NCBI RefSeq assembly: GCF_020616515.1
Contig: NZ_CP085135.1
Location: forward strand, 2,356,001-2,420,000
Direction: 5' to 3'
Length of the DNA stretch: 64,000 nucleotides
Source of the DNA: Mesorhizobium sp. PAMC28654
Lineage (GTDB): Bacteria; Pseudomonadota; Alphaproteobacteria; Rhizobiales; Rhizobiaceae
This document shows positions 2 through 13,074 of the stretch, in pieces (positions within the stretch are counted from its first letter, which is position 1; every line of letters starts with the position of its first letter). The notes under the pieces were generated by a model. That model saw only the letters and a list, made by a program, of their open reading frames with translations, was not told the DNA's origin and ran no database searches. Position numbers and translations under genes: made by a program.

Positions 2-1537
2 CCCGGCTTCGATCTGGCAAAGGCAGCCGCCGACATTTTTGACGCCGACCCCTCGGTCGAGGGCCTGATCCTCGACAAGCATGGCATCTTCACCTTCGGC
101 GATGATGCCAAACAGGCTTACGACCTGATGATCCACTATGTGAACGTCGCCGAAGAGTTCATTGCGCGGAGCGGCAAGTCGAAGGCGGCAAAGGCGGCGT
201 TGCCGGCAAAACTCGCGACACCAGCATCTATCGCGCCAATGCTGCGCGGCGCTGTCGCGGTGGCGCGCGGCGAAGGCCGCTTCGATCGCATGATCAGCGA
301 CTTCCGCACCTCGGACGCGATCGTCGACTTCATCAACTCGGCTGACATCGCCGACTATGCCGCGCGCGGCGTGTCGACGCCCGATCTGTCGATCCGCATC
401 AAGACCGGGCCGATGGCGGTGCCGGCGCCCGATGCGGACAAGCTCGACGACTACAAGGCCGTGATCAAGGCGCACATCGACACCTTCGCCGGGGAATATC
501 GCGCTTATTTCGAGACCAATGACGCCCTCGACGATGTCAAGCGCACCATGCTCGACCAGATGCCTCGCCTGACACTGGTGCCGGGTCTCGGCATGTTCGG
601 CCATGGCCGCACGCTGAAGGATGCCAGGATCGCCTCCGACGTTGGCGAGATGTGGATCGAAGCGGTGCGCGGCGCCGAAGCGGTCGGCCGTTTCCATCCG
701 CTCTCCAAGGCCGACCTGTTCCCGCTTGAATACTGGTCGCTGGAGCAGGCCAAGCTTGCATCGAACAAGCCGAAGCCGCTGACCGGCCAGGTGGTGCTGA
801 TCACTGGCGGTGCCGGCGCGATCGGTGCCGCGACAGCAAAACTGTTCGCCGACAATGGCGCCCATGCCGTCGTCGTCGATCTCGACGCCGAAAAGGCCGC
901 TGATGCCGCCAAGAAGGCCGGCAACAACTCCATCGGCGTCGGTGCCGATATCACCGACCCTGCACAGGTGCGCGCCGCGTTCGACAAGGCGGTTGCCGTG
1001 TTCGGCGGTGTCGACATTCTCGTCTCTAACGCTGGCGCTGCCTGGGAAGGCCGGATCGGCGAACTCGACGATGCGCTTTTGCGCAAAAGCTTCGAGCTCA
1101 ACTTCTTCGCCCACCAGTCCGTGGCGCAGAATGCCGTGCGCATCATGCTCGAACAAGGCACCGGCGGCGTGCTTTTGTTCAACACTTCCAAGCAGGCGGT
1201 CAATCCAGGTCCGAAATTCGGTGCCTATGGCGTGCCGAAGGCGGCGACGCTGTTTCTGTCCAGGCAATACGCGCTCGATTACGGCGCCCACGGCATCCGT
1301 TCGAACGCCGTCAACGCCGACCGCATCCGCTCGGGGCTCTTGACCGACGCCATGATCGCCAGCCGGTCCGGCGCGCGCGGCGTGTCTGAGAAGGACTACA
1401 TGTCCGGCAATCTGCTCGGCCAGGAAGTGACGGCGCAAGACGTGGCGCAGGCGTTCCTGCACCAGGCGCTGGCCGACCGGACCACCGCCGATGTGACGAC
1501 GGTCGACGGCGGCAATATCGCGGCGGCGCTGCGGTAG
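2..1537 (+). CDS. Bifunctional class II aldolase / short-chain dehydrogenase (5' end outside window)
   Basis: The frame is open from base 2, so 511 residues of the C-terminal part are visible and the true start lies outside the window. The first ~210 visible residues match the end of a class II (RhaD/fuculose-aldolase type) sugar-phosphate aldolase, including a PGLGMFGHGRT segment. A linker leads to a complete short-chain dehydrogenase with a TGGAGAIG nucleotide-binding motif near visible residue 267, SNAG, and the catalytic Tyr409-x-x-x-Lys. Rhizobial proteins of this fusion are usually called RhaD and cleave rhamnulose-1-phosphate to DHAP and lactaldehyde, which the dehydrogenase then converts. 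Here mtnK and mtnA lie about 5.5 kb away, beyond a ribose-type importer. I therefore infer cleavage of 5-methylthioribulose-1-P or 5-deoxyribulose-1-P to DHAP plus an aldehyde, with reduction or oxidation of that aldehyde. Fusion family is confident; substrate is inference. Confidence 0.88.
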   Translation, partial: PGFDLAKAAADIFDADPSVEGLILDKHGIFTFGDDAKQAYDLMIHYVNVAEEFIARSGKSKAAKAALPAKLATPASIAPMLRGAVAVARGEGRFDRMISDFRTSDAIVDFINSADIADYAARGVSTPDLSIRIKTGPMAVPAPDADKLDDYKAVIKAHIDTFAGEYRAYFETNDALDDVKRTMLDQMPRLTLVPGLGMFGHGRTLKDARIASDVGEMWIEAVRGAEAVGRFHPLSKADLFPLEYWSLEQAKLASNKPKPLTGQVVLITGGAGAIGAATAKLFADNGAHAVVVDLDAEKAADAAKKAGNNSIGVGADITDPAQVRAAFDKAVAVFGGVDILVSNAGAAWEGRIGELDDALLRKSFELNFFAHQSVAQNAVRIMLEQGTGGVLLFNTSKQAVNPGPKFGAYGVPKAATLFLSRQYALDYGAHGIRSNAVNADRIRSGLLTDAMIASRSGARGVSEKDYMSGNLLGQEVTAQDVAQAFLHQALADRTTADVTTVDGGNIAAALR

Positions 1538-1542
1538 TCGTG

Positions 1543-2031
1543 ATGAACGCGGGAGCTCCCGACGGGAAGGCGCCCGGCGGCCTTGAAATCAGGGCAGTTC
1601 AGGCGCCCGATCTGCCGGCGCTCGCCGCGCTCTACCGGCATCTCAATCCCGACGACGCGATCGTGTCGCCGGAAGAAGCAGAAGCCATTCTTGAACGGTT
1701 TGCGGCCTATCCGGGCAGTGTCGTGCTGGGAGGCTGGGATGACGGCGAACTCGCGTCGTCCTGCACGCTTGTCGTCATTCCCAACCTCACTCGAGGCGGG
1801 ATGCCCTATGCGCTGATCGAGAATGTGGTGACGGCTGCTTCCCATCGGAAACGCGGCTTCGGCCGCGCGCTACTTGAACGCGCGGTTTCGATTGCCTGGG
1901 AGCAGGACTGCTACAAGGCCATGCTGCTGACCGGCTCAACCGAGCCGGCCACGCTTGCCTTTTACAGAGGCGCCGGTTTCGAGCAGAACAAGACCGGCTT
2001 CCAGATCAGACGGCTGCCAGTTAGACCCTGA
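1543..2031 (+). CDS. GNAT family N-acetyltransferase
   Basis: This 162-residue protein has the GNAT fold, with the acetyl-CoA pyrophosphate loop visible as RKRGFGRAL (about residues 102-110) and a typical C-terminal FYRGAGF segment. It begins 5 bases after the aldolase stop codon (GTG at 1540 and ATG at 1543 are both possible) with no clear ribosome binding site of its own, which suggests translational coupling. The acceptor substrate cannot be told from sequence. The pairing with the aldolase may be operonic convenience only. It is followed by a strong terminator. Confidence 0.85.
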   Translation: MNAGAPDGKAPGGLEIRAVQAPDLPALAALYRHLNPDDAIVSPEEAEAILERFAAYPGSVVLGGWDDGELASSCTLVVIPNLTRGGMPYALIENVVTAASHRKRGFGRALLERAVSIAWEQDCYKAMLLTGSTEPATLAFYRGAGFEQNKTGFQIRRLPVRP

Positions 2032-2063
2032 TATCGGCAGACCTGACATTACACCATCTCGCA

Positions 2064-2094
2064 AAAAGGCCCCGCACGATTGGCGGGGCCTTTT
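2064..2094 (+). terminator. Rho-independent terminator, bidirectional
   Basis: Perfect 12-bp arms AAAAGGCCCCGC / GCGGGGCCTTTT surround a 7-base loop, with T-rich sequence after and A-rich sequence before. It sits between the converging acetyltransferase (plus) and binding-protein (minus) genes and can end transcription from both sides. Confidence 0.85.
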
Positions 2095-2115
2095 CGTTTT
2101 GAACAGCTCGCGCCC

Positions 2116-3168
2116 CTATTTCGCGTTCGGGTTCGGCATCCAGGCCGGCATGGCGACATCGGCATGGGCGAACTGCGGCAGCTTGGCCGAGAGGTCCTCC
2201 ATGTTCTTGATGTCCTTGTCGATCAGCTCTTTCTGGGTGATCAGCGTCGGCGGCACGACGACGTTGTGGCCGGGATCTTCTCCGGCCAGCAGCTGCGCCA
2301 GCGCGCGCACCGAGACCTGGCCGACGACAGCCGGGTTGGTTGCCGCGGTCGCGGCCCAGGCACTGTCGGGCTCGCGCATCGCGGCGATATCGGACGTCGA
2401 GATGTCGGCCGAATAGATCTTGATGCCCTTGTTCAGGCCGGCTTCGTCGACAGCGATCTTCACGCCCTTGGCGAACTCGTCATAGGGGGCGAACATCACC
2501 TTGATGTCGGGGTGAGCCGACAGCACCGAACGCGCCTGGTTGGCGACGGAGTTGGCGATCGGATTGTCGAGCGTGCCGAATTGCGCCACTTCCTTGATGC
2601 CCGCGTATTTCTTCTTCACATCGACCCAGGTCTCATTGCGGCGGTCGAGCGGCGCGATGCCGGCGACGTAGACATAGCCTGCGTTCCAGCTTTCGCCATT
2701 GTCCTTCACCGCCTGCTCGAGCGCGAGCCGCGCAAGGTCTTTGTCCGATTGTTCGATCTGCGGGATCTTGGGGTTTTCGACATTGACGTCGAAAGCGACG
2801 ACCTTGATTCCGGCATCGACGGCACGCTGGGCGGCATCCTTCATCGATTCCGTCAGGCCGTGCTGGATGATGATGCCCTGCACGCCGAGCGCGATGGCCT
2901 GATCAACCATGTCCGACTGAAGGGCGGCGTCCTGGCGGCTGTCGAGGACGCGCAGATCGATGCCGAGCGCCTTCGACTGCGCCTCGACGCCCGAGAGATA
3001 GGCCTGGAAGAAGTCGCCGGTCGAGAGATAGCGCACCAGCGCGATCTTGACGCCAGGTTTGTCGAATGGCGCCGGCTTGTCCGCGGCCAGCGCTGGGAAC
3101 TGCATCAGCATCGTTGCGCCGGCCAGCCCGAGCGCGACCTTCCCCAGAACTCTTCTTGTAATGTTCAT
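2116..3168 (-). CDS. Sugar ABC transporter substrate-binding protein (ribose type)
   Basis: Periplasmic sugar-binding protein of the RbsB/type 1 periplasmic-binding family, 350 residues. The start at 3168 is chosen because GGAGGAAACAAG precedes it and the protein then opens with a signal peptide (MNITRRVLGKVALGLAG...ALAA). The mature part has the RbsB-like layout: KIALVRYLSTGDFF at the N terminus, IIIQHG and VVAFDVN near the ligand site, and an ADISTSDIAAM hinge region. It is first in transcription order after the permease and ATPase genes on the same strand, so it is the 3' end of the importer operon. The neighbouring mtnK/mtnA suggest the ligand is methylthioribose or 5-deoxyribose rather than ribose. 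That is inference from context. Confidence 0.88.
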   Translation of the reverse strand: MNITRRVLGKVALGLAGATMLMQFPALAADKPAPFDKPGVKIALVRYLSTGDFFQAYLSGVEAQSKALGIDLRVLDSRQDAALQSDMVDQAIALGVQGIIIQHGLTESMKDAAQRAVDAGIKVVAFDVNVENPKIPQIEQSDKDLARLALEQAVKDNGESWNAGYVYVAGIAPLDRRNETWVDVKKKYAGIKEVAQFGTLDNPIANSVANQARSVLSAHPDIKVMFAPYDEFAKGVKIAVDEAGLNKGIKIYSADISTSDIAAMREPDSAWAATAATNPAVVGQVSVRALAQLLAGEDPGHNVVVPPTLITQKELIDKDIKNMEDLSAKLPQFAHADVAMPAWMPNPNAK

Positions 3169-3217
3169 CTTGTTTCCTCCACTCCTGTTGAACTCAAAAA
3201 TCAGATCGGCAGCAATT

Positions 3218-4213
3218 CTAGCTCTTGCTCCTGCCGGAAAGGGCGAAGGTGAAGACAAGGGCGACGACCAGAACCACGCCCTTGACGAAATCCTGCGTGT
3301 AGTAGGGCGCGTTCATCATGGTCAGGCCTTGCAGCAAGATGCCGACGAACAGCGCGCCGACGGCGGTGCCGAAGGCGTTCGGCTTTGCGGCGCCGAGCAC
3401 CGCGTAGCCAATGAGCGCCGCGGCGACAGCGTCGAGCAACAGATTATTACCCGAGGCGATGTCGCCGCGTCCAAGCCGGGCGGCGAGCAAAATGCCGCCG
3501 ATCGAGGCAAAAACACCTGAAATAATGTAGGCCCAGATCTTGTATGCCTTGACAGGCGCCCCAGCGAGTTCCGCCGCCCGCTCGTTGCTGCCGACGGCGT
3601 ACATCATGCGGCCGAAGCGGGTGTATTCGAGGAAGAACCAGATCAGCACGGCCAACACGAGCAGCACGACGACCGACACTGGAATGAGGTTCGGAATGAA
3701 GAAATCGAAGCGGTGGCGACCGAGAGCCAGGAAGGCGTCGGAGAATTTTCCGTTGGCGACCGAGCCGTCCGGCATGGTCATGCCGGTGGCGATCGAGCGG
3801 CCCTCGGTCGGGATGCGCTGCAGGCCGACAAGCAGGAACATCGTGCCGAGCGTCGCCAGGAGATCGGGCACGCGCATGTAGACGATCAGCCAGCCATTGA
3901 TCAGGCCGACAATGGCGCCGATCAGCAGGCAGACGACGACCGCGACGACCGCGTTCTGCCCGAGCACCACCATGACATAGGCCGCGGCCATCATCGCGGA
4001 GGTGGCGACCGAGCCGATCGAGAGGTCGAAGCCGCCGACAACCAGCGTGGCGGTGACGCCCAGCGCCAGCACGCCGGTGATGGCGACCGACTGGAAGATG
4101 AAGACGGCACTTTGCGGCGAGACGAAACCGTCGGCGGCGATCGCGAAATAGGCGACGAGCCCGAACAAGAGGACGATGAAGCCGTAGCGGATGGCGTGGT
4201 CGCGCAGCGTCAT
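3218..4213 (-). CDS. Sugar ABC transporter permease (RbsC type)
   Basis: Inner-membrane permease of the ribose/xylose ABC importer class, 331 residues with about 8-10 hydrophobic segments. It shows the family signature region GGFDLSIGSV (residues ~61-70), the cytoplasmic coupling stretch GSNERAAELAGAPVKAYKIWAY, and a closing glycine-rich LAARLGRGDIASGNN segment. It lies between the ATPase gene (82 bases upstream) and the binding protein (49 bases downstream) on the minus strand, as expected for one operon. The gene reads intact. Without the ATPase, which is disrupted by IS630, the permease would be inactive unless another ATPase substitutes. Confidence 0.9.
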   Translation of the reverse strand: MTLRDHAIRYGFIVLLFGLVAYFAIAADGFVSPQSAVFIFQSVAITGVLALGVTATLVVGGFDLSIGSVATSAMMAAAYVMVVLGQNAVVAVVVCLLIGAIVGLINGWLIVYMRVPDLLATLGTMFLLVGLQRIPTEGRSIATGMTMPDGSVANGKFSDAFLALGRHRFDFFIPNLIPVSVVVLLVLAVLIWFFLEYTRFGRMMYAVGSNERAAELAGAPVKAYKIWAYIISGVFASIGGILLAARLGRGDIASGNNLLLDAVAAALIGYAVLGAAKPNAFGTAVGALFVGILLQGLTMMNAPYYTQDFVKGVVLVVALVFTFALSGRSKS

Positions 4214-5401
4214 TCAGCGCTCCCGCGCGCCGCTGCCGTTGTTACCCAACTCGAACCCATGGTCTCTCCATTCCAATTCCTGTTCACCGCCACGCTCACG
4301 CGGCGCTGTGCAACGGTCCGCCGGCGACCTCGGCCAGCAGGCGATCGAGATCGACATCGGCATTGCGGTGCTCGCCGACGATGGTCTGTTCCGACAACAC
4401 CAGGATGCGGTCGGCTGTCTCCAGCGCCTCGTCGATTTCGGTAACGAACAAAAGCGTCGCGCGGCCCTTGGCGCTTGCCCGCAACTTGGCGGCGATATCG
4501 CGCCGGGCCGATATGTCGACGCCTTGAAACGGTTCGTCGAGGATGAACAGTCTTGCGTCCTGCGCCATCCAGCGAGCGACCATCACCTTCTGCTGGTTGC
4601 CGCCGGAAAGCGCCGACATCTCGTCCTTCTCGGAGCGGCAGACGATGCCGAGTTCCTCGATCTGCCGGCGTGCGGTGGCGCGTTCGAGGCGACGCCTGAG
4701 AACGCTCAAATTCGACATGCGCTTGAGGAACGGCAGGCTGACATTGCGCTCGATGTTGAAGCCGCCGACGATACCGCTGGTGGCGCGATCCTTGGCGACG
4801 AGGAAAACACCGGCAGCGATTGCATCGCCGGCCGATCGCGGCGCATAGGGCTTGCCGTTCATCGTCATGGTGCCGGCCAGCGGCCTGCGCACGCCAAACA
4901 GCGTCTCGGCGAGCGCCGTCTTGCCAACGCCGACGAGACCGGTGATGGCAACTACCTCGCCGTCACCGAGCGTCAAGGAAATCGGCCGGGCGCCCTGTGC
5001 GATACGCACGCCCTCGATCGTCAGGACCGCCTTGGCCGAATCCCTGACGACGATCTGGTCGAGGTGGATCTTGCGGCCAAGCATGGCGTTGACCGCGCCT
5101 TCATAGTCGAGCGGTTTGGAGTCGAAAACGCCCGAGATGACGCCGTCGCGCATTGAGACGATGCGATCGGCAAGCCGCCTGATGTCCGACATGCGATGCG
5201 AGATGTAGAGGATCGCCACGCTTTGCTCACGCAGCCGGTCGACCAGTGCGAACAGCCGATCGGCTTCGGCGCTGGAGAGCGAAGAGGTCGGCTCGTCGAG
5301 AATCAGCACTTTCGGCTGGTGCGCCAAAGCACGGGCGATCGCCACCATCTGGCGATCGGCCAGTGAAAGGTCGCTGACGCGAGCCTTCAGGTCGATGGCT
5401 A

Positions 5402-6455
5402 GAGCAGAATCTGATCATTCCGGCTCATATCCTGTTGCGGCGAAGTAGTTGGCGCACTCGGTTGGTGTGAAGCAAGGCAGTGCGGCGCTGATGGTATCCC
5501 ACAATTCCGCGACGGTTCGTGCGGCGGCTTTGCGTAGAATCGATTTCAGCTTGGAAAAGGCGTTCTCGATCGGGTTGAAGTCGGGGGAATAGGGCGGGAG
5601 GAACATCATCCTTGCGCCGGTTGCTTCGATCGCCACACGGGCGGCTGCGCTTTTGTGCGCCGGCAGGTTGTCGAGGATCACGACATCGTCGGGCCGCAGC
5701 GTCGGCACGAGAACCTGCTCGACATAGGCGACAAACCATTCGCCAGTCATCGGGCCGTCCAGGACCATTGGCGCGGTCATGCCAGTGAGGCGCAGGGCGC
5801 CGGTGAACGTCGTCGTCTTCCAATGGCCATGCGGGATTGGCGATCGGCACCGCATCCCGCGCTTCGTGCGCCCCCGCAGTCGAGCCATCTTTGTCGAGGC
5901 TCCGGTCTCGTCGATGAAGACCAGATGCTCGGGATCAAGATCGGGCTGGGCGTCGAACCAGGCGTTTCGTCGCGCCGCCACGTCTGGCCGCTCCTGCTCG
6001 CTGGCGTGCGCCGTTTTTTTTGAAGGTCATGGAGTGACGATCGAGAAACCGCCAGATCGTGCTCGTCGCAAACGACGCGCCATGCTCCTGTCGCAGCAAC
6101 TCGGCGAGTTCGACCAGCGTGATGTCCACCCGCCTCTCGATCGCCGCCAGGATGATGTCGCGATACGCTTCAACGCGGTGGGACCGCCTGTCGCCGCCCT
6201 GCGGCTTTGCGCAGGTGGCTCCGGTCTCGCGCCATTCCCGGACCCAACGCACCGAGCTTGCCGCCGCCACGCCAAATCGCGCCGCTGCCGCCCGTCGCGA
6301 CAGGCCGCCATCAACCGCTGCGACCACCCGAGCCCGCAAATCTTCCGATAAGGATTTCGCCATGCCATGCCGGCCTCCGAATCCAGCAGATATGCTGAAT
6401 CAGATTTCCAATCCCAACGAAACCCCTATCGATTCTATCCGCTCGGATTTTGCTC
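5402..6455 (-). mobile_element. IS630-family insertion sequence (1054 bp)
   Basis: The ends are imperfect inverted repeats beginning GAGCAGAATC and GAGCAAAATC, each flanked by TA (5400-5401 and 6456-6457), the target duplication typical of IS630/Tc1-type elements. It carries one transposase in two overlapping frames on the minus strand. The insertion is inside the ATPase gene and is perfectly reversible on paper. Confidence 0.93.
5415..6363 (-). CDS. IS630-family transposase, two frames joined at a poly-A run
   Basis: The first frame (6363 to 5935) encodes a helix-turn-helix domain (MAKSLSEDLRARVVAAVDGG...RFGVAAASSVRW). The second (ending 5415) encodes the DDE catalytic domain: Asp in VFIDETG, Asp in VILDNLPAHKS and Glu in FNPIENAFSKLK, so all three acidic residues are present. 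The frames meet at eight A residues on the minus strand (T run 6014-6021). A +1 shift or one missing A there gives the continuous reading MTFKKTAHASEQERPDV, which is typical IS630 sequence. The break may be programmed slippage rather than decay. Confidence 0.88.
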
Positions 6456-6882
6456 TAGTCCCATGCGGTCGGCAACCGCCTTTGCCTCGCGGCGCACGCG
6501 GGCCGGATTGAACAGGAACGGCGCGCCGCTGCCGCTCAGCCTGTCCAGCGTGAGATTGGTCGCCACGTCGAGGTCGGCGACGACACCGTCATTGATGTTC
6601 TGGTGCACGGTGACCACGCCGGCGCGGATCGCCTCGGCCGGCGTGTTCGGCGCGAAGTCCTGGCTGGCGAGGGTCATGGCGCCGCCGCCCCGTTCGTAGA
6701 CGCCAGAGATGATCTTGACGAGGGTGGATTTGCCGGCGCCGTTGGCGCCCATCAGCACGGTCACTTCGCCAGCATGGAGGTCCAGCGAGACGCCGCCAAG
6801 CACCTCGTTGCGGCCAAAGGATTTCCTCAGTCCCTCTACGCGGAACACGGCATTGCCGACCATGCGTTCCTCCCTGACGACG

Positions 6883-6945
6883 ACGCTATGGTCAATGTCG
6901 GCAATTGTCAACACGATTGACAATTGCCAGACAGCTTCCTAGCTT
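6883..6945. promoter_or_regulatory. Shared operator with two divergent promoters (importer / mtnK)
   Basis: A perfect inverted repeat GGCAATTGTCAA (6900-6911), CACGA, TTGACAATTGCC (6917-6928) lies between the divergent importer and mtnK genes. Each arm contains a consensus TTGACA. On the plus strand TTGACA (6917-6922) is followed after 17 bases by TAGCTT (6940-6945). On the minus strand TTGACA (6911-6906) is followed after 17 bases by TAGCGT (6888-6883). A protein bound to the repeat would cover both -35 elements, so repression of both units is the natural reading. The regulator is not in the visible part of the locus. Confidence 0.8.
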
Positions 6946-6999
6946 GGCCTCGCCGCTAAGGCTCCCTATGATCGGAGCGCATAGGCGGGAGGGAGAAGA

Positions 7000-8271
7000 A
7001 TGACTGGGAAATTGCCATTCGAAGCACTGTCGGTGGAGACGCTTTCAACGCGTCTCGGCACGAACGCGGCGCTGTGCGCGAAGATCGGCAAGGACACGAG
7101 CGCCTGGAAGGTTCGTGAGGTCGGCGACGGCAATCTGAACCTGGTGTTCATCGTCGAAGGCGCCAGCGGCGCCGCCGTGGTCAAGCAGGCCCTGCCCTAT
7201 GTGCGCCTCGTCGGCGACAGCTGGCCGCTGCCCCTGAAGCGCTCCTTCTTCGAATACCACGCGCTGAGCCGGCAAGAGGCGCGCGCGCCGGGCTCGGTGC
7301 CGGCCATCCATCATTTCGATGAAGGCCAGGCGCTGATCATCATGGAATATCTGTCGCCGCACATCATCTTGCGGCGTGCGCTGATTGAAGGCCGGCAGCT
7401 TCCGAACATCGCACGGGATATCGGTCTGTTCATGGCCCGTACGCTGTTTCGCGGTTCAGACCTGCATATGGCCGCCAAGGACCGCAAGGCCGACCTGGCC
7501 CTGTTCGCCGACAATGTCGAACTCTGCGACATCACCGAGAACCTTGTGTTCTCCGCCCCCTATTTCGATGCCAAGATGAACCGGCATACGTCGCCGCAAC
7601 TCGACGGCCTCGTCGCCGAACTGCGTGCTGATCGCGACCTCAAGGTGGAGGCGCAGCGGCTGAAGCATCTCTTCGCCGCCAATGCCGAGACGCTGCTGCA
7701 TGGCGACCTGCATTCTGGCTCGATCATGGTCACCGATAGCGAAACGCGGATGATCGATCCGGAATTCGCCTTCTACGGCCCGATGGCCTTCGACGTCGGC
7801 ATGCTGCTCGCCAATTTCTGGATGTCGTTCTTCTCGCAGCGCGGGCATGAGCAAAAGGCAACCCGCGATGCCATGCGCGCCCATCTGCTCGATGTCACCG
7901 TCGAGACTTGGGTCGTGTTCCGCGCCGAGTTCTCGCATCTGTGGCGCACCGAGCGCACCGGCATGCTCTACCAGAAGAGCCTGTTCGAGGATCAGGGCGA
8001 CATACTCGGCGCCGAGCAGGCACTCGACCATGTACTGCACCAGATCTGGACCGACCTGCTCGGCTTTGCCGGCATCGAGGTTCATCGGCGCATCCTCGGC
8101 CTCGCCCACAATGCCGATTTCGAGACCATTGCCGACGAGGATTTGCGCGCCTCGTGCGAGGCGAAGGCGCTGAGATTCGGCCGTCATATCGCTGTCAACC
8201 GGCGCCAGATACACAGTATTGACGAGGTCAACAATCTGGCCGTGTTGATCGAACAGGAGAGCAGAATTTGA
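7000..8271 (+). CDS. mtnK: S-methyl-5-thioribose kinase
   Basis: The enzyme phosphorylates 5-methylthioribose (some relatives also 5-deoxyribose) at C1 using ATP, the entry step of MTR salvage. The 423-residue length is usual for the family. Kinase motifs of the aminoglycoside-phosphotransferase-like fold are visible: [12 protein letters not shown] (nucleotide loop), HGDLHSGSI (His234, Asp236, catalytic loop) and [10 protein letters not shown] (metal-binding DPE). The start at 7000 follows the strong site GGGAGGGAGAAGA. It overlaps mtnA by 4 bases and is divergent from the importer, with the shared operator between. Confidence 0.94.
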
Positions 8272-9362
8272 ACGTCGGCGACCGCCACTATCGTACCATC
8301 TGGCTGAGCGACGACGGGCGTTCGATTGACATCATCGACCAGCGCTGGCTGCCGCATGATTTCCGCATCGAGACGATCAGCACGGTTGCCGGTATCGCCA
8401 CAGCCATCCGCGACATGTGGGTCCGCGGCGCGCCGCTGATCGGCGTCACCGCCGCCTACGGCGTCGCCATGCAGATGGCCGATGATCCGTCGGACGACGC
8501 GCTCGATGCTGTGTGGGAAACACTCCACGAGACGCGCCCGACCGCGATCAATTTGCGCTGGGCTCTCGACGAGATGCGGCGCTTCCTGCGGCCGCTGGCG
8601 CCAGAACAACGTGCCGAAGGCGCCTACCGGCGCGCGGCCGAGATCGCGGATGAAGACGTCGGCCTCAACCGCGCCATCGGCGAGAACGGTCTCGCCATCA
8701 TCAAGGCCATCGCCGCGCGAAAGCAACCGGGCGAGACTGTCAACATCCTCACCCACTGCAATGCAGGCTGGCTGGCAACGGTCGACTACGGCACCGCCAC
8801 TTCGCCGATCTATCTCGCTGTCGAAGCCGGCATTCCCGTTCACGTCTATGTCGACGAAACGCGCCCACGCAACCAGGGCGCCCAGCTGACCGCCTGGGAG
8901 ATGGCCGGCCACGGCGTGCCGCACACGCTGATCGTCGACAATGCCGGCGGCCATCTTATGCAGCGCGGCGAGATCGACATGGTCATCGTCGGCACCGACC
9001 GCACCACCGCAGATGGCGATGTCTGCAACAAGATCGGCACCTATCTCAAGGCACTGGCCGCGGCCGACAATGACGTGCCGTTCTATGTCGCCCTGCCGTC
9101 GCCGACCATCGACTGGACAGTGCATGACGGGCTGAGGGAGATTCCGATCGAGCAACGCTCGGCCGACGAGGTATCGCTGGTCTGGGGCAAGACGGCCAGC
9201 GGCGAAATCGCCCAGGTGCGCATCTCCCCGGAGACGACGCCGGCGGCAAACCCGGCCTTCGACGTGACGCCAGCGCGGCTGGTGACCGGGCTGATCACCG
9301 AACGCGGCGTCGCCAAGGCGTCGCGCGAGGGGTTGAAAGCGATGTTCCCAGAGCGCAGCTGA
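8268..9362 (+). CDS. mtnA: S-methyl-5-thioribose-1-phosphate isomerase
   Basis: This enzyme converts the aldose phosphate made by MtnK into 5-methylthioribulose-1-phosphate. It belongs to the eIF2B-like isomerase family, 364 residues. Family marks are [13 protein letters not shown] (about residues 54-66), the catalytic Cys164 in LTHCNAG and the catalytic Asp244 in [18 protein letters not shown]. The start is TTG at 8268, inside the mtnK stop (TTGA overlap), preceded by AGGAGAG. No mtnB, mtnC, mtnD or mtnW of the universal methionine salvage pathway is visible in the window. The ketose phosphate is more likely passed to the aldolase at the left edge. Confidence 0.95.
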
Positions 9363-9428: not shown

Positions 9429-9440
9429 AACCGCGTCAAT

Positions 9441-10133
<693 letters not shown>

Positions 10134-12213: not shown

Positions 12214-13074
12214 TCATTCGGCGGCGTTTCGCTCGAACTGCATCGGGCTGATGTAGTCGAGCGCGGAATGCCGCCGGATGGGATTGTAGAAGCCGTCGAT
12301 ATATCGGGCAATGGCGGCTTGGGCATCGGCGCGGGTAAGGAAAGAGGTGCGCCAGATCAGTTCAGTTTTCAGCGTCTTGAAGAATGTTTCGACCATGGCG
12401 TTATCAAAGCAATTGCCCTTGCCTGACATTGAGATGATGACGCCGGCGGCACGCAATTCGGCTTGGTAGTCGATAGAACAATATTGGCTGCCGCGGTCGG
12501 AGTGGTGAATGAGGCCGGGTTCCGGCTGCCGCATGACGAACGCCTTGTTGAGCGCTGCCAGAGCCAGGCTGCGGTGTAGCCGGTTGCCAGCAGCCCAGCC
12601 AACGACCTTGCGGGCAAACAGATCGATGACGACAGCAAGGTACAACCAGCCCTCCCGCGTCCAGATGTAGGAGATGTCGGCACCCCATTTCTGGTTGGGA
12701 CCAGTGGCGGCAAAATCCTGGTCGATGACATTGGGGGCAACCGGAAAGGCGTGTTCGCTGTCCGTCGTGCGCTTGAACCGCCGCTTCTGTCTTGCCTGGA
12801 GGCCATTCTCCCGCATCAGACGCGCCGTTCGTCGCCGGCCAATGGCAAAGCCATTGTCTTGCAGTTCCCGCGTCATGCGCGGGCTACCATAGGTTCCGTT
12901 CGACAGCGCGAACGACGATCGCACATGCGCCAGCATTATCATGTCGTCGCGCTGCCGGCGGCACGCCGGCCGGCGCCCCCAGGCAAAGTAGCCGCTCGGG
13001 CTGACACCCAGCGTCGCGCACAAACGGTCCACAGGGAAATCCTTCTTCGCCTGGTCGATGAGCGCGAACCTCAC
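12214..13074 (-). CDS. IS3-family transposase OrfB (copy 1)
   Basis: The 286-residue catalytic subunit has the DDE triad: Asp in WGADISYIW, Asp in HHSDRGSQY and Glu in NAMVETFFKTLK. It starts with GTG overlapping the orfA stop by 4 bases, so translation may be coupled or a frameshifted OrfAB may be made. It appears complete. Confidence 0.94.
   Translation of the reverse strand: MRFALIDQAKKDFPVDRLCATLGVSPSGYFAWGRRPACRRQRDDMIMLAHVRSSFALSNGTYGSPRMTRELQDNGFAIGRRRTARLMRENGLQARQKRRFKRTTDSEHAFPVAPNVIDQDFAATGPNQKWGADISYIWTREGWLYLAVVIDLFARKVVGWAAGNRLHRSLALAALNKAFVMRQPEPGLIHHSDRGSQYCSIDYQAELRAAGVIISMSGKGNCFDNAMVETFFKTLKTELIWRTSFLTRADAQAAIARYIDGFYNPIRRHSALDYISPMQFERNAAE

Follow-up and report, generated by a model that had tools for sequence, protein, structure and literature searches.

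A class II aldolase/short-chain dehydrogenase fusion linked to mtnK and mtnA in Mesorhizobium and its predicted role in a dihydroxyacetone phosphate shunt

Introduction

Which pathway is served by a fused class II aldolase/short-chain dehydrogenase (SDR) whose gene lies near mtnK and mtnA and not in a rhamnose locus? The question is raised by Mesorhizobium sp. PAMC28654, in a stretch of 64,000 nucleotides (here called the window; positions 2356001-2420000 of a single 6.70 Mb contig) whose left end falls within the fusion gene. Once the left flank (L006) is added, the gene is intact (L006:15444-17537) and encodes 697 amino acids (aa). An earlier note, made from the window, had placed the fusion, a ribose-type importer, mtnK, and mtnA in one region, with which gene calls and profile scores agree, and had read them as a salvage route for methylthioribose or 5-deoxyribose.

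Dihydroxyacetone phosphate (DHAP) shunts with a stand-alone aldolase have been described as DrdK-DrdI-DrdA in B. thuringiensis (PMC6079011), MtnK-MtnA-Ald2 in E. coli (PMC10986504), and MtnP-MtnA-Ald2 in R. palustris (PMC5893883). Here, the conclusion that the fusion goes with mtnK and mtnA, not with rhamnose genes, is well supported by comparative evidence. To judge from the sequences, the cluster is probably a DHAP shunt whose aldolase step and subsequent aldehyde step share one polypeptide. Literature searches, which covered parts of the publications, found none that links an aldolase-SDR fusion with mtn genes; an earlier notice is possible.

Results and discussion

Family assignment of the fusion

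Pfam profiles place a class II aldolase domain (PF00596) before an SDR domain (PF00106) in the encoded protein, which is a full member of NF006192 (PRK08324.1-6), matching profile positions 1-685 of 685 over its whole length with 1138 bits against a cut-off of 639. The name of that family, “bifunctional aldolase/short-chain dehydrogenase,” gives neither substrate nor pathway; the mtn link is added by the present analysis. Against the RhaD model TIGR02632, the fusion scores 488.9 bits, which is under the cut-off of 567.75. Its nearest relatives, among the best 80 matches in the public genome collection, are from Mesorhizobium (up to 94% identity, as for the ortholog in Mesorhizobium ciceri WSM1271). 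Among solved structures, the aldolase domain is closest to 3m4r, an uncharacterized protein that thus names no function for it.

In the profile search, neither the left flank L006 nor the surroundings of the fusion in the window yielded rhamnose genes. The gene immediately upstream of the fusion encodes a SorC-type sugar-binding transcriptional regulator, which NCBIfam DeoR and LsrR models also match under cut-off, and farther left are genes for an AcrB-type efflux pump and an HlyD-type protein and, nearer to the SorC-type gene, for a TetR-like regulator. At a distance of about 400 kb from the fusion is the rhamnose operon, which is identified by profile matches (RhaI, 898 bits, cut-off 647; RhaS, 513 bits, cut-off 342) and holds its own true RhaD fusion (TIGR02632, 1061 bits), along with importer- and kinase-like genes.

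Linkage to mtn genes

The fusion was followed through 151 genomes of the family, 289 alphaproteobacterial genomes (the class sample, whose counts include the own genome where it matches), and 299 genomes of the phylum; fusion counts in all three are lower bounds, since at most 7 candidates per genome were scored in the family and at most 3 in the class and the phylum. In the family, a fusion above the NF006192 cut-off is found in 49/151 genomes and mtnK in 55/151. Linkage counts use all 52 family fusions, all 50 class fusions, and 73 RhaD-type genes. Within 10 kb of mtnK lie 37 of the 52 NF006192-type fusions and none of the 73 RhaD-type genes, though 28 of the latter are in mtnK-bearing genomes; 12 partial or split matches (nine an aldolase half or fragment, three SDR-only) are outside both counts. 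By co-occurrence tests, which ignore the relatedness of genomes, the fusion and mtnK are strongly associated (42 family genomes with both, 7 with the fusion only, 13 with mtnK only, and 89 with neither; Fisher p 1e-18), whereas RhaD-type genes show no association with mtnK across the same genomes (28 with both, 45 with RhaD only, 27 with mtnK only, and 51 with neither; p 0.74).

The neighborhood is conserved as a whole. The 36 family loci, besides the own, that join fusion and mtnK contain mtnA in all cases, a SorC-type gene in 33, and the importer in 31. Among the best 80 relative loci, 73 have both mtnK and mtnA, and 62 show the exact order of regulator, fusion, divergent binding protein-permease-ATPase genes, mtnK, and mtnA. 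Five of the seven loci that lack the mtnK-mtnA pair (L116, L127, L142, L152, and L163) meet a contig edge near the fusion; L153 and L172 do not.

The linkage extends to the class, where the fusion occurs in 50 genomes, mtnA in 128, mtnP in 141, and mtnK in 10. Of these 50 fusions, 33 (32/49 without the own) are within 8 kb of mtnA, mtnP, or mtnK, 27 of them within 500 bases, and mtnA is found in 46/50 fusion genomes versus 82/239 others (p 1e-14). Among 40 class loci that were fetched, 16, spanning 7 families, combine mtnP, mtnA, and the fusion; the rest have mtnA only (10), mtnP only (5), mtnA with mtnK (1), or none (8). A phosphoribosyltransferase gene (PF00156), read as apt, is present in 10 of the 40. 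In the phylum sample, 13/299 genomes are above the NF006192 cut-off: the own, 8 more of the same genus, 3 of the same class, and 1 from outside the class.

Phylogeny and active-site residues

A quick maximum-likelihood tree with 101 rows separates 90 NF006192-type sequences from 11 RhaD-type sequences with a support of 100, and the own copy falls with its genus (its row bears the label “none,” since L006 does not extend to the mtnK of the window). The tree omits L051 and L212, which are partial fusions, 62 of the 73 RhaD-type genes, and nine of the 49 non-own class fusions, whose contigs are all without mtn genes. The tree program gave a warning for L219, a long branch of unsure place.

Conserved in both groups are 96 positions. 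Shared residues include H152, H154, and H213, which by the general pattern of class II aldolases we take to be of the metal-ligand type, and S582 (88/90 NF006192-type sequences, with Thr in 2), Y595, and K599, which, together with N553, we likewise take to be of the SDR catalytic type; D479, also shared, is presumably the Asp usual in NAD-binding SDRs. Other positions separate the groups: E139 is found in 90/90 NF006192-type sequences versus Asp in 11/11 RhaD-type sequences, N553 in 90/90 versus Leu in 11/11, W88 in 86/90 versus Gly, and H59 in 89/90 versus Tyr.

These data bear on the simplest alternative, namely, that the fusion is an ordinary second RhaD (rhamnulose-1-phosphate aldolase/lactaldehyde dehydrogenase) that lies near mtnK by chance. 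The likeness is real: the fusion shares with RhaEW/RhaD (L-rhamnulose-1-phosphate aldolase/L-lactaldehyde dehydrogenase) the aldolase-SDR architecture, the conserved histidines, the SDR Ser-Tyr-Lys residues, and the 96 positions given above. However, it misses the TIGR02632 cut-off, belongs to a separate clade, and has Glu139 for Asp and Asn553 for Leu as fixed differences in the active-site region; the rhamnose operon has a fusion of its own, and none of the RhaD-type genes shares the linkage to mtnK. Furthermore, RhaEW orthologs are reported to be always in rha loci (PMC3870299), while the copy in the window is mtn linked and outside the rhamnose locus. We therefore reject a second RhaD as a highly improbable explanation. 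The doubt cast by the earlier note on the RhaD name was justified, and the two comparisons that it proposed came out likewise: the left extension holds regulator and efflux-type genes, not a rhamnose operon, and NF006192-type fusions, many of them mtn linked, branch separately from the rhamnose-linked ones.

Other salvage genes and replacement of the fusion

A gene for a 5'-methylthioadenosine/S-adenosylhomocysteine (MTA/SAH) nucleosidase is found elsewhere in the genome (TIGR01705, 389 bits; cut-off 152), and no MTAP was detected in it at the threshold used. The genome encodes five PF00596 proteins, namely, two fusions and three stand-alone proteins, and none of the latter passes the mtnB model TIGR03328 (44-62 bits versus a cut-off of 137), so that an mtnB misnamed as a class II aldolase was rejected. 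The mtnD gene (PF03079) was found in 0/151 family genomes, the own included. The absence of classic salvage genes that the earlier note had seen in the window thus extends to the whole genome for mtnB and mtnD, the two genes that the wider search covered. The aldolase beside mtnK and mtnA is RhaE-like and fused, and no Ald2/DrdA-type (FucA-like) aldolase is found there; the one stand-alone FucA-like protein in the genome, which is under the FucA cut-offs, adjoins a gene of the 3-oxotetronate kinase family.

Three loci (L087, L089, and L090) lack the fusion and keep the SorC-type gene, the importer, mtnK, and mtnA; in them, a gene for a stand-alone class II aldolase follows mtnA. These aldolases are FucA-like and under the FucA cut-offs; the nearest solved relatives of that in L089 are FucA proteins (209 bits), with DrdA (6btd) farther away (142 bits). 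From this replacement within the same cluster, we infer that the fusion fills the aldolase step of the shunt. Among the 13 mtnK-bearing family genomes without the fusion, a stand-alone PF00596 gene lies about 1.2 kb from mtnK in four, 5 kb in one, and 12 kb in one; in G048, where the fusion is unlinked, such a gene lies 2.2 kb from mtnK.

Several results weigh against the assignment of the fusion to this pathway. The co-occurrence tests, as said, take no account of relatedness. Fifteen of the 52 family fusions are more than 10 kb from mtnK, and 17 of the 50 class fusions are more than 8 kb from any mtn gene (15 with none on the contig and two at 22 and 48 kb). In the phylum sample, 59 genomes, mostly outside the class, have fusion relatives at 506-590 bits, under the cut-off. 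The clade itself contains a nine-row subgroup, eight rows of which are without mtn genes in the fetched loci; this subgroup and the unlinked fusions indicate that the NF006192-type family may hold more than one function, and the subgroup perhaps acts on another substrate. Seven of the 13 fusion-less mtnK genomes have no stand-alone PF00596 gene within 20 kb on the same contig. Finally, the fusion is missing from between the regulator and binding-protein genes of Sinorhizobium meliloti plasmid pMl9 (L099) and of the family genome G028 (L095), both of which also have mtnK, mtnA, and importer genes (for L099, as judged from the plasmid record only, in an incomplete gene table that has no ATPase); the fusion is thus not indispensable for the rest of the cluster.

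Proposed pathway

The shunt as we envisage it would begin with the MTA/SAH nucleosidase, which would free 5-methylthioribose or 5-deoxyribose from MTA or 5'-deoxyadenosine, both of them remnants of reactions that use S-adenosylmethionine. MtnK would phosphorylate the freed sugar at C1, and MtnA would isomerize the sugar 1-phosphate to the ribulose-1-phosphate. The metal-dependent class II aldolase domain of the fusion would then cleave 5-methylthioribulose-1-phosphate or 5-deoxyribulose-1-phosphate to DHAP and 2-(methylthio)acetaldehyde or acetaldehyde, and the fused NAD-type SDR domain would convert the aldehyde on the spot, probably by oxidation to the acid. Aldol cleavage in the shunt is thermodynamically uphill, with equilibrium constants of about 1e-4 (PMC6079011); oxidation would pull this unfavorable step and stop the aldehyde from escaping. 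Substrates, reaction direction, channeling, and regulation are here put forward as predictions. Most likely, by analogy, the fusion couples cleavage and the aldehyde step as RhaEW does, on C5 sugars.

Oxidation to the acid is favored because of the homology to RhaEW, the characterized relative from C. aurantiacus, which yields DHAP and lactate only with NAD+ and has no activity with NADH (PMC3870299). An alternative within the same pathway is that the SDR domain is an NADH-dependent aldehyde reductase that forms ethanol or 2-(methylthio)ethanol, doing the job of the “putative alcohol dehydrogenase” of the R. rubrum and R. palustris DHAP shunts. The SDR site, with the catalytic-type Asn553 in 90/90 fusions where all 11 RhaD-type sequences have Leu, is not of the lactaldehyde-oxidizing type, which makes reduction a serious alternative. 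In R. palustris, moreover, 2-(methylthio)ethanol is the product, and the dehydrogenase responsible was left open (PMC5893883). However, the need of RhaEW for NAD+ argues in the other direction, and the aldolase reported for R. palustris is Ald2, a stand-alone enzyme (PMC5893883), so that we hold reduction with less than even confidence.

Whichever way the aldehyde is processed, the kinase and isomerase families of the cluster are the same as in the DHAP shunts of E. coli ATCC 25922, R. rubrum, and R. palustris and in drdK-drdI-drdA. Class II aldolase chemistry, predicted here, a nucleosidase in the genome, and the lack of a detectable mtnB or mtnD complete the comparison with the published shunts. 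Transporter genes are also part of some published clusters; the importer here is a CUT2 ATP-binding cassette (ABC) system. The difference lies in the aldolase: Ald2/DrdA is FucA-like and about 215 aa long, whereas the enzyme here, known from sequence, has a longer RhaE-type domain fused to an SDR. It appears likely that many Alphaproteobacteria took a RhaEW-like aldolase-dehydrogenase into the DHAP shunt, an event independent of Ald2/DrdA. Such an enzyme would serve both the mtnK and the mtnP branches and would couple the unfavorable cleavage to redox removal of the reactive aldehyde, with the “missing” dehydrogenase built in.

If this is true, an enzyme family that occurs in 50/289 alphaproteobacterial genomes and is now named without a substrate gains a pathway, and the disposal of MTA and 5'-deoxyadenosine is explained in a family with mtnK in 55/151 genomes and mtnD in 0/151. 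One pathway slot would be filled by two distantly related aldolases in an otherwise identical cluster, and the fusion would be a candidate for the aldehyde-handling step that was left open in R. palustris (PMC5893883).

Importer and its interruption

The coordinates of the cluster are given in Table 1. The importer is broken in the strain of the window: an insertion sequence (IS) element of the IS630 type, overlooked in the earlier note, splits the ATPase gene. The ends of the element resemble inverted repeats starting GAGCA, with TA at both borders (5400-5401 and 6456-6457). Its frame 5935-6363 matches HTH_Tnp_IS630 and HTH_32 slightly above cut-off, and its frame 5415-5981 matches DDE_3 with 116 bits. 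The 350-aa frame of the C-terminal ATPase part aligns to CUT2 ATPase models from position ~150 on, and for the N-terminal part a start near 6863 is more likely than that of the longest frame. In relatives, 109/110 ATPase open reading frames are at least 480 aa long, and the remaining one is cut by a contig end. Since the ATPase gene is the first in the likely transcription unit, the insertion may also affect the genes for the permease and the binding protein.

Table 1. Features of the mtnK-mtnA cluster (window positions unless L006 is given)
Feature	Position	Strand	Evidence or remark
SorC-type sugar-binding transcriptional regulator	L006:14400-15398		Directly upstream of fusion; PF04198, 174 bits
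Aldolase-SDR fusion, C-terminal 511/697 residues	2..1537	+	N-terminal 186 residues left of window, from L006:15444
Periplasmic sugar-binding protein, CUT2 (ribose-type) ABC importer	2116..3258	-	Weak RbsB/RhaS matches, far under cut-offs
Importer permease	3218..4213	-	RbsC-like model, 157 bits, under cut-off 398
Importer ATPase, C-terminal part	4296..5399 (frame listed 4296-5348)	-	Severed from N-terminal part by IS element
IS630-type insertion, 1054 bp, two overlapping transposase frames	5402..6455	-	Read directly from sequence
Importer ATPase, N-terminal part	6458..6923	-	PF00005; longest frame 6435-6923
Palindrome TTGTCAACACGATTGACAA, candidate operator of the SorC-type regulator	6905..6923	.	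Between ATPase and mtnK
mtnK, S-methyl-5-thioribose kinase family	7000..8271	+	TIGR01767, 502 bits (cut-off 275); intact
mtnA, S-methyl-5-thioribose-1-phosphate isomerase family	8268..9362	+	PRK05720, 484 bits (cut-off 271); TIGR00512, 425 bits (279); intact

With the ATPase gene split, the sugars that enter the route in this strain probably come from within the cell. The salvage reading of the earlier note thus holds in part: the tie of the fusion to mtnK and mtnA, not to rhamnose, stands on linkage and tree, and the statement that the route is fed by an importer finds no support in this strain. The oxygen independence named in that note stays a prediction.

The importer also bears on the possibility that another imported sugar, 5-deoxy- or branched, is the one broken down, by way of MtnK- and MtnA-like enzymes of shifted specificity, with the salvage of MTA and 5'-deoxyadenosine being secondary. 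The ribose-type importer in 31/36 and the sugar-binding regulator in 33/36 fusion-mtnK loci of the family are in line with this. However, the 40 fetched class loci showed no match to this importer or regulator, and mtnP accompanies the fusion in 21 of them, which points to nucleosides; furthermore, both MtnK and MtnA exceed their curated cut-offs by a wide margin. We therefore regard another sugar as an unlikely main substrate and retain MTA and 5'-deoxyadenosine as the predicted sources.

Candidate operators

The sequence TTGTCAACACGATTGACAA is a perfect palindrome with one match in the window at up to two mismatches, where 0.02 would be expected. As a pattern, it has its sole exact match in the genome here and occurs in one other place at one mismatch. 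Upstream of mtnK, TGTCAA-N5-TTGACA is present in 27 of 42 loci (35 that join fusion and mtnK and 7 with mtnK and no fusion nearby; the window itself is not included) versus 23 of 2100 random windows of the same loci, some of which may overlap true sites. Upstream of the SorC-type gene, TTGAC-N3-TGTCA is present in 24 of 39 loci versus 20 of 2100 random windows. The copy of the latter in the own genome (L006:14393-14405) carries one mismatch, with no exact match. That a related site precedes the regulator and fusion genes, as the palindrome precedes mtnK, suggests a single regulon; both promoters are probably under the SorC-type regulator, whose gene lies immediately before that of the fusion. 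MtnR of E. coli may be a regulator of the same family. In that bacterium, MtnR represses the DHAP shunt, and 5-deoxyribose induces it (PMC12632272).

Neighboring genes and other relatives

The end of mtnK and the start of mtnA share 4 bases. A gene for a GNAT-like acetyltransferase (1540-2031, plus strand) starts 2 bases past the stop codon of the fusion; it was rejected as a part of the system, with relatives in only two other compared loci (L123 and L137). Just past mtnA, at 9437-10133 (plus strand), a flavin mononucleotide (FMN) riboswitch (RF00050, 119.5 bits) lies directly before a lumazine-synthase-like gene (PF00885). As this was the sole match at the gathering threshold, a riboswitch acting on the salvage genes was rejected. 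Shortly to the right of the cluster is a second transposase gene, IS3-like with an integrase core (12214-13074, minus strand).

On a Shinella plasmid (L100:12254-15311), two transketolase-annotated genes and a gene for a RuBisCO-like protein (PF00016) directly follow mtnA, and a transketolase-like gene is common to six family loci (L016, L017, L018, L020, L023, and L043, with Pfam matches in L016 and L020). The transketolase and RuBisCO-like genes after mtnA are possibly a second branch for the ribulose-1-phosphate.

Among relatives of the fusion, the aldolase-SDR fusions under the cut-off in 59 genomes of the phylum sample are intermediate in score between RhaD-type and NF006192-type proteins. 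Unfused relatives that match the aldolase half only (about 1-430) occur in G061, G092, G094, G054, G141, and G085 (L070-L073 for four of them), at least two of which adjoin sugar ABC importer genes, and SDR-only relatives occur in G038, G067, and G074. In the subgroup without mtn genes (L056, L058-L062, L064, and L065), a different ABC ATPase-like gene lies directly upstream of the fusion in six of the eight loci.

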